This document shows positions 5,843-35,795 of a stretch of 35,795 nucleotides of DNA, in pieces. The notes under the pieces were generated by a model. It did no database searches, was not told where the DNA came from, and saw nothing but the letters and a program-made list of their open reading frames with translations. The DNA lies in IMG/VR virus record IMGVR_UViG_3300025759_000283, positions 1-35,795 of that record; one strand, given 5' to 3'. Within the stretch, counting starts at the first letter, position 1, and each line of letters opens with the position of its first letter. The DNA comes from a virus. A program made the translations under genes and the position numbers.

Positions 5843-6118
5843 ATGACGGAGAAAAAGAACACAAGTGCTGATATGCTTGGGCAGTTTTCTATTGCCCTTC
5901 AGCAACTTGGATGGGACCCTGAAGATGAACTGAGGGTTGATATTGGAGGTGTTGCCGCAACGGGAACCGCAACTCATCCAGATGCAAATCCCAAATGGGC
6001 AAAACCTTTTGGAACTATTACTTATCAAAAGGATGCTTTCATTGTAATTAAAAATGTAAGTCGCAATCCTATCATTTCTTCTCAACCAAATCCAGATTTG
6101 AAAGCATATCATGCATGA
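5843..6118 (+). CDS. Small hypothetical protein (91 aa)
   Basis: Start ATG 5843 is preferred to the in-frame ATG 5819 because 5819 lies inside the promoter -10 box, whereas 5843 follows a GGAG (5831-5834) at good spacing. The product begins MTEKKNTSADMLGQFSIALQ. It has a mixed helix-strand pattern with a Pro/His-rich centre (ATGTATHPDANPKWAKPFG) and a beta C-terminus. No family is recognised. It overlaps the next gene by 8 bases. Confidence 0.6.
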   Translation: MTEKKNTSADMLGQFSIALQQLGWDPEDELRVDIGGVAATGTATHPDANPKWAKPFGTITYQKDAFIVIKNVSRNPIISSQPNPDLKAYHA

Positions 6119-6389
6119 AAACTATTCGGTAATTGATTTAAATACTGGAAAAAGAATTGCTGACTGTGCTACTTTGGAAGATGCAAAAATGATGGTTTCT
6201 TTTAGTCCTGCCAATAGAGCATATAGAAAGAATCGATTTATTGTGGATCAAGTTATTGACATAACTTCTACTACAGATAAACAACTTCCAGGACAATTAG
6301 GATTACCTTCTACAAAAGAGAGACTATCAGATTCTGAAGAAATGATTCTTTTACCAGAAGCAGAAGGAATTCCTTTTATCACTAAATAA
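6111..6389 (+). CDS. Small hypothetical protein (92 aa)
   Basis: ATG 6111 lies just inside the previous gene (overlap ATGCATGA). The product has an N-terminal segment (YSVIDLNTGKRIADCATLEDA) of the sort seen in small phage alpha/beta domains, and a disordered C-terminus rich in Pro, Ser and Glu. The function is unknown. It lies upstream of the glutaredoxin gene in the same unit. Confidence 0.6.
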   Translation: MHENYSVIDLNTGKRIADCATLEDAKMMVSFSPANRAYRKNRFIVDQVIDITSTTDKQLPGQLGLPSTKERLSDSEEMILLPEAEGIPFITK

Positions 6390-12705: not shown

Positions 12706-13311
12706 ATGAAAGTGACACCAATCGAGGCCTATAAGACTTATATTTCAGTTAAAAATCATTTCACAAAACCAAACTATGACTATATCAAATACAATGGTAA
12801 AGTAAAGGCAGGTGAAAAGAGTTTTTATTCCCGTAAAGATAGGTTTTGGTTTGAAAGATTGTCAAGACAAAAGAAAGATAACGAAATACTAGATTTTTTT
12901 GTTTCTAATTTTGCATCAGCCACTGATCCTCAGACACTTTGGATTGGGGAAATTATTAAAAGTGGAACTGATATTTACGGTGATTGGATGAAAAGAATTC
13001 AATCACTGTCTTATAATTTTAAGCAAGAAGTAGAGTTCTTATTTTCCTCAGAAAAATTTGAAGATATTTTCAAAATCAAAGGGTCTTCACATCCTTTGAT
13101 TTTGAAGTATTATATGAAAGGAAATATTTCATTAGAAACTCTTGTCATATTTGATATGATTTTTTCTTTTAGTAAAAACTTTGACAAGAAATTAAATGAT
13201 CCTGTTTGGGATATTGTAAGTATGAAAATTAAAAAGTACTCTCCATTTATACATATAGATGTATCTCGCTATAAGAGAGTTTTAAAAGAAGTTATTTTGG
13301 AGAATAAATGA
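12706..13311 (+). CDS. gp59: gp59-like helicase loader
   Basis: The 201-residue protein is similar in layout to T4 gp59 (217 residues): N-terminal IEAYKTYISVKNHF and YDYIKYNGKV, then KDRFWFERLSRQ and FFVSNFAS, then a helical C-terminal half ending SRYKRVLKEVILE. gp59 loads the gp41 helicase onto gp32-coated single-stranded DNA at recombination forks. Gene order gp33-gp59-gp32 matches T4 apart from the DUF1825 gene between 59 and 32. The next start at 13308 overlaps its stop (ATGA). Confidence 0.85.
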   Translation: MKVTPIEAYKTYISVKNHFTKPNYDYIKYNGKVKAGEKSFYSRKDRFWFERLSRQKKDNEILDFFVSNFASATDPQTLWIGEIIKSGTDIYGDWMKRIQSLSYNFKQEVEFLFSSEKFEDIFKIKGSSHPLILKYYMKGNISLETLVIFDMIFSFSKNFDKKLNDPVWDIVSMKIKKYSPFIHIDVSRYKRVLKEVILENK

Positions 13312-35346: not shown

Positions 35347-35418
35347 GGGAAAATCGACTTTTAATTCCATTTTTGGGCGGAAAAAAATCCCGGTAATTTT
35401 TTGGTCTGTAGGGTTTTC

Positions 35419-35628
35419 ATGAATTTAATCAAAATTGACTATCAGTCTCTAATAGAGCGGAGGGTGAAGACAACACCAGAAAATGTCAAAGAAGCAAACG
35501 AGGCACTATTTCGTGCTAAAATGACCGTGCCCGCAGCAGCGAAGCACTGCGGTATGACTCAGAAGGAAATGAAAATGACCTTCCAAGAGTATCTCAAGTA
35601 TCATCCACCAACTTACGAAATGGAATGA
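35419..35628 (+). CDS. Small helix-turn-helix-like protein (69 aa)
   Basis: ATG 35419 is preferred to the TTG at 35401 because of an AGGG upstream. The product is helical: DYQSLIERRVKTTPENVKEA, then a segment MTVPAAAKHCGMTQKEMKMT (about residues 36-55) with the AAxxxGMTxxEM spacing of a helix-turn-helix, and a C-terminal FQEYLKYHPP. I recall similar small conserved cyanophage proteins without known function. DNA binding is inferred from the pattern only. Confidence 0.6.
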   Translation: MNLIKIDYQSLIERRVKTTPENVKEANEALFRAKMTVPAAAKHCGMTQKEMKMTFQEYLKYHPPTYEME

Positions 35629-35637
35629 TACAAGCAC

Positions 35638-35666
35638 TTGACAATCTGAGGTTTATGCCTTATAAT
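35638..35666 (+). promoter_or_regulatory. Consensus sigma70 promoter
   Basis: TTGACA (35638-35643), a 17-base spacer and TATAAT (35661-35666): both boxes perfect. Transcription should start near 35673, so the transcript would contain both arms of the inverted repeat at 35681-35723. Confidence 0.85.
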
Positions 35667-35680
35667 TGTTAAGTGCCTAA

Positions 35681-35723
35681 ATTACTTAGAGCATAAATAA
35701 AAATAAACACTGCTCTAAGTAAT
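35681..35723 (+). promoter_or_regulatory. 13-bp hairpin abutting the next start codon
   Basis: ATTACTTAGAGCA (35681-35693) and TGCTCTAAGTAAT (35711-35723) are perfect reverse complements with a 17-base AT-rich loop. The second arm ends at the base before ATG 35724, so folding would hide the translation start. No T-tract follows, so it is not a normal terminator. Confidence 0.8.
35692..35699 (+). promoter_or_regulatory. Late promoter CATAAATA inside the hairpin loop
   Basis: CATAAATA spans the end of the first arm and the loop. A late transcript would start about 6 bases after it, near 35706, and so would lack the first arm and could not form the hairpin. Confidence 0.55.
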
Positions 35724-35795
35724 ATGATAGGAAGTTGTAAAAATTGTAAAAAGCAATTTAATTATTTCCCATCTCAGGGAAAAGGACTTTATTGT
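35724..35795 (+). CDS. Cys-rich zinc-finger-like protein, 3' end cut (possible homing endonuclease)
   Basis: The frame is open from ATG 35724 to the window end (24 codons). The visible part begins MIGSCKNCKKQFNYFPS and ends GLYC, giving a CxxC pair and a third Cys about 16 residues after the pair. This fits an N-terminal zinc ribbon such as those on phage HNH homing endonucleases. The hairpin plus early and late promoter arrangement upstream is also typical of phage homing endonuclease genes. The catalytic part lies outside the window, so the call is tentative. Confidence 0.5.
   Translation, partial: MIGSCKNCKKQFNYFPSQGKGLYC

Follow-up and report, generated by a model that had tools for sequence, protein, structure and literature searches.

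The stretch of DNA analysed here, referred to below as the window, is a 35,795-nt IMG/VR fragment of a T4-like cyanophage that carries baseplate genes; its source is a marine cyanobacterial virus, and Megablast with the end of the window against named phages gave no match. The features of interest lie on the plus strand at its right-hand end. A gene for a 75-aa conserved cyanophage protein (35401-35628; PHROG 1920, matched in 436 cyanophage records) belongs to a flank that is also common to relatives without the homing endonuclease gene (HEG) discussed below. It is followed by a sigma70-type promoter at 35638-35666, with TTGACA at 35638-35643, a 17-nt spacer and TATAAT at 35661-35666. This is the sole perfect copy of TTGACA-N17-TATAAT in the window, where seven sites with at most one mismatch occur against 0.74 expected from shuffles. 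The initial annotation of this DNA, made from the sequence alone, had taken it for the promoter of an early transcript of the downstream gene. The match itself is perfect, but its ownership has to be corrected: because the same promoter is conserved in relatives that have no HNH gene (L003, L008, and L011), where it stands directly before tRNA-Ile and tRNA-Leu, it is the promoter of the tRNA cluster.

Between this promoter and the next start codon lies an inverted repeat whose 5' arm, ATTACTTAGAGCA (35681-35693), and 3' arm, TGCTCTAAGTAAT (35711-35723), are 100% complementary over 13 bp and separated by a 17-nt loop. The 3' arm terminates at the base before ATG 35724, so that the predicted 13-bp hairpin ending immediately before the start codon is confirmed to the base. 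The last 5.8 kb of the window contain no other inverted repeat that reaches 11 bp within 60 nt. Perfect 13-bp repeats with a loop of at most 40 nt number two in the whole window, and 10 Markov-1 resamplings gave none; the other perfect repeat of at least 13 bp (loop of 10-12 nt) lies at 13069-13106. A T4-type late promoter, CATAAATA (35692-35699), sits between the arms; the late motif published for cyanomyoviruses is NATAAATA (PMC2984593). The motif had been described as lying in the hairpin loop, which is right as to its placement between the arms but not as to its lying wholly in the loop, since its first two bases are shared with the 5' arm and it occupies the junction of arm and loop. Across the window ATAAATA is not enriched (10 copies against 15.5 expected); however, six of the nine other copies are located 19-31 nt 5' of the start of an ORF of at least 100 aa, which makes it probable that this genome employs ATAAATA as a late promoter.

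Only the first 24 codons of the gene that begins at ATG 35724 are visible in the window (35724-35795), including a CxxC...C pattern. By itself this 24-aa fragment finds only weak matches, several of them to HNH proteins, and no match in a PHROG search. The remainder of the gene is supplied by an IMG/VR contig (L002) that is 100% identical across the last 495 nt of the window, and the gene is also complete in a second contig, L082. In L002 (4324-4740) it encodes a 138-aa protein that opens with a zinc-binding CxxC and has its HNH domain at the C terminus, scoring 23.9 bits against Pfam HNH PF01844 (cut-off 21.4) and matching the HNH endonucleases of PHROG 1271 at 2.9e-20, so the suspected HNH-type endonuclease is indeed present beyond the window edge. 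On its 3' side L002 carries a further promoter, TTGACT-N17-TATAAT, and then tRNA-Ile, tRNA-Leu, and tRNA-Thr; in other cyanophages, homologues of the gene lie between tRNA-Ile and tRNA-Met. An intron-encoded endonuclease, as I-TevI itself is, was rejected, given that Rfam finds tRNAs and no group I intron around the gene. The gene is free-standing and most likely encodes a homing endonuclease. The same contig carries another, distinct HNH gene at 5900-6325; it has a TTGACA-N17-TATAAT promoter to itself, and its 10-bp hairpin, with CTAAATA as the loop, is followed by a T-run.

Close relatives reveal how mobile this block is. L003 matches the window at 96.6% identity as far as position 35678, where the similarity ends. 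In L005 and L006 a different tRNA-Ile is present, an unrelated HNH gene with a different hairpin lies at the same locus, between tRNA-Ile and tRNA-Leu, and identity resumes at tRNA-Leu at 99.5%. For the stretch from the promoter to tRNA-Leu (35679 onward), close relatives thus fall into three allele states, which differ in their tRNA-Ile genes and have flanks that are 96-99% identical; this is the presence/absence polymorphism at a conserved site by which free-standing HEGs are recognised. Because homology stops at 35678, the hairpin, the late promoter, the HNH gene, the second promoter, and tRNA-Ile fall inside the variable block and the first sigma70 promoter falls outside it. By this comparison, the hairpin and late promoter appear to have come with the HNH block.

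The two promoters would yield transcripts that differ in whether the hairpin can form. The predicted early leader (35673-35723, with its +1 placed by inference) includes both arms, and the early transcript from 35673 to 35784 is predicted to fold at -28.8 kcal/mol. In the late transcript, whose +1 is expected near 35705 from T4 late promoter geometry (leader 35705-35723), the 5' arm, which ends at 35693, is missing by placement. The bases at -13 to -1 before the AUG are predicted to be 3% unpaired in the early transcript versus 63% in the late one, and opening the start is predicted to cost 13.1 kcal/mol in the former (17.5 with more upstream sequence) versus 3.2 kcal/mol in the latter. In silico, the stem is thus predicted to sequester the translation start on long transcripts. 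No clear Shine-Dalgarno sequence is found in the stem, the best match to AAGGAGGT being 3 nt, and the hairpin would therefore hide the bases just before the AUG.

Several known systems offer precedents for such control. The early and middle RNAs of I-TevI, I-TevII, and I-TevIII carry an inhibitory stem, and a late or middle promoter near the ORF gives RNA without its 5' arm (PMC2988022). These endonucleases are intron-encoded with a sequestered Shine-Dalgarno, whereas the window gene has neither an intron that could be found nor a clear Shine-Dalgarno. The I-TevI-like two-promoter logic proposed initially thus holds for the layout of hairpin and late promoter but not for the intron setting, and among T4 genes the free-standing segB is the nearest counterpart (PMC2988022). 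Like the window gene, segB is free-standing and lies in a tRNA cluster (between tRNA-Ile and tRNA-Arg), with CATAAATA upstream and a stem by which the start is masked in long transcripts, and control by RNA structure has been implicated (PMC3014915); unlike the window gene, which is HNH and from a cyanophage, it is GIY-YIG and from a coliphage, with an AGGAG ribosome-binding site in its stem. The mobE gene of Aeh1 shares the combination of a free-standing HNH endonuclease and a hairpin, there shown experimentally to block translation (PMC3014915, PMC2988022), although it lies in a ribonucleotide reductase region in another phage group. T4 gene e (lysozyme) and soc likewise have an inhibitory stem at the translation start, and late promoters of gene e give transcripts without the 5' strand (PMC3014915), but in contrast to the window gene these are not mobile endonucleases. 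Among cyanophages, RNA-level regulation has been proposed for the free-standing homing endonuclease F-CphI of S-PM2 through an antisense RNA, CfrI (PMC2984593), with no hairpin switch described of the kind present in the window. In the open-access literature we found no description of hairpin and late-promoter control of cyanophage endonucleases. By analogy, the window feature would be a cyanophage HNH counterpart of the I-TevI/segB arrangement, in the sense of working like that control without matching all its details.

The reading we favour, with a probability of nearly 0.8, is that the HNH gene arrived in the tRNA cluster accompanied by a control element of its own, whose hairpin blocks early translation and whose late promoter frees the start. 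On this account, a free-standing HNH gene and its element would have entered the tRNA cluster of a T4-like cyanophage, presumably by homing. Early in infection the host-type RNA polymerase would transcribe from 35638-35666 through the HNH gene, and the RNA would fold into the 13-bp hairpin, placing the start codon out of the ribosome's reach and allowing tRNAs to be produced with little endonuclease. Late in infection, a gp55-type polymerase would start from CATAAATA within the hairpin, close to 35705, giving an RNA that lacks the 5' arm, cannot form the hairpin, and would be translated. Two start sites, translational repression, its timing, and homing are what we infer for this locus; in its essentials the initial interpretation is supported.

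Evidence beyond the locus comes from independent instances and from a survey of the layout across cyanophage genes. The instances include the unrelated HNH gene of L005 and L006, L126 and L127, whose hairpins differ in sequence, the isolates DSL-LC03 and RN05-S, and the L081-type HNH genes, the best-sampled family; across 18 distinct sequences of this family 97.2% of stem cells are paired, whereas slid versions reach 55% at most, although covariation is not above shuffles (80/500). In a scan of 1.39 Mb of cyanophage DNA, picked only by neighbouring phage genes and not by endonucleases, a TAAATA inside a stem scoring at least 22 and no more than 12 nt ahead of a start codon was found at six distinct genes, all six of homing-endonuclease type. 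Most HNH and NUMOD3 genes selected by Pfam on 44 contigs have a late motif within about 40 nt of the start, and in about half of them it lies inside a strong stem. From DNA partly chosen for endonucleases, 123 late-motif genes were drawn as representatives of clusters at 50% identity, and in 23 of them the inverted repeat around the late motif beats all 200 dinucleotide shuffles. Every one of these 23 is nuclease-type by Pfam, PHROG, or close homology (HNH, GIY-YIG, NUMOD3, and endonuclease VII families) and none is structural (Fisher P = 2e-10 assuming 54 nuclease genes among the 123, which by our own arithmetic would weaken to about 1e-7 if more nuclease genes are present among the rest). 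The difference between early and late opening cost has a median of 8.1 kcal/mol in the 23 versus 2.5 in the other late-motif genes (P = 9e-8). Against the favoured reading, many endonuclease genes with a late promoter, a sizeable share of them, have no significant stem. That hairpin and late motif might be general to cyanophage late genes was rejected, non-nuclease late genes having no such stems, and the suggested link between this kind of control and homing endonucleases is thereby upheld: the layout recurs before many unrelated cyanophage genes of that type and not before other late genes.

The palindrome might instead act as DNA, as an operator for the endonuclease or another protein on the late promoter, with autorepression like that of I-TevI and the RNA hairpin incidental. 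The repeat straddles the late promoter, a perfect repeat is symmetric as DNA, and I-TevI and, putatively, I-TevII and I-TevIII bind operators that overlap their own promoters (PMC2988022). An operator, however, would have no need of a 3' arm that regularly stops only a few bases, or fewer, from the start codon. Further, hairpin sequences differ between related genes while their position is kept. G-U pairs outnumber A-C mispairs in the stems by 20 to 7, and while chance stems already give 70 versus 55, the comparison leans to RNA. We thus regard an operator as unlikely, if the most credible of the competing explanations.

Were the hairpin a 3'-end or processing element of the upstream RNA, either a terminator or an RNase target, the gene would merely be late. 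Terminator-like stems do occur just before the late promoter in extended layouts such as those of L273 and L283, and a stem with a T-run precedes the second HNH gene of L002. At the window locus, by contrast, no T-run follows the stem, no terminator-like site was found in L002 4100-5100, and the intrinsic-terminator reading of this hairpin was rejected on both counts; the 3' arm abuts the ATG, and the restriction of such stems to nuclease genes likewise weighs against this explanation, which we consider improbable. Chance, in the form of an AT-rich inverted repeat beside an AT-rich promoter motif with no regulatory role here, draws on the chance frequency of the motif alone and on the closest homologues, which lack an occluding stem. 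Against it stand the absence of perfect 13-bp repeats from the resampled windows and the exclusively nuclease-type genes that beat their shuffles, and we give it scarcely any credence.

Under the favoured reading, homing endonucleases of the abundant marine cyanophages would, as in T4, be translated only late, with no clear Shine-Dalgarno in the stem, suggesting that delayed nuclease production is a strong and general constraint. Judged from sequence, the layout is apparently widespread in cyanophages. Somewhat better than even, in our estimation, are the odds that a late promoter between the arms of a repeat that reaches the start codon, in a compact form like that of the window and in an extended one, constitutes a general, repeatedly acquired module of mobile nuclease genes in T4-like cyanophages, across the HNH, GIY-YIG, NUMOD3, and endonuclease VII-type families. 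If it does, endonucleases could ride early tRNA and other operons without being produced early. More practically, the layout provides a signature by which likely homing endonucleases can be picked out from cyanophage genes that lack an annotation.

The form that the layout takes varies. The nearest homologues of the window gene (L084-L095, 81-87% identical) retain a late motif and inverted repeats, but the repeats are arranged differently and end 9-14 nt before the ATG, with weak predicted occlusion (early-late differences of -0.6 to 2.1 kcal/mol), which weighs against the favoured reading. In the 60 nt 5' of their HNH start, mutually exclusive stems surround TATAAATA, ACTCTAA/TTAGAGT versus CTACACTT/AAGTGTAG, possibly a different mode of gating. 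An extended form is found in 10 of the 23 genes, and in most of these the late motif is preceded by a nested terminator-like stem. Upstream of endonuclease starts in L273, L283, L284, L288, L298, L113:1620, L153, L066, and L266, a long inverted repeat encloses a terminator-like stem and TATAAATA, and the 3' arm of this repeat lies 6-10 nt ahead of the start. The compact form is found in the isolates DSL-LC03 and RN05-S, before HNH genes in tRNA clusters. In DSL-LC03 (L310 2426-2465) an apparent tRNA 5' half, for which ARAGORN makes no call, directly precedes the HNH gene, which looks as if inserted into a tRNA gene. In RN05-S (L311, about 2493-2840) an HNH gene that is unannotated in GenBank lies, with its hairpin and late motif, between tRNA-Asn and tRNA-Val.
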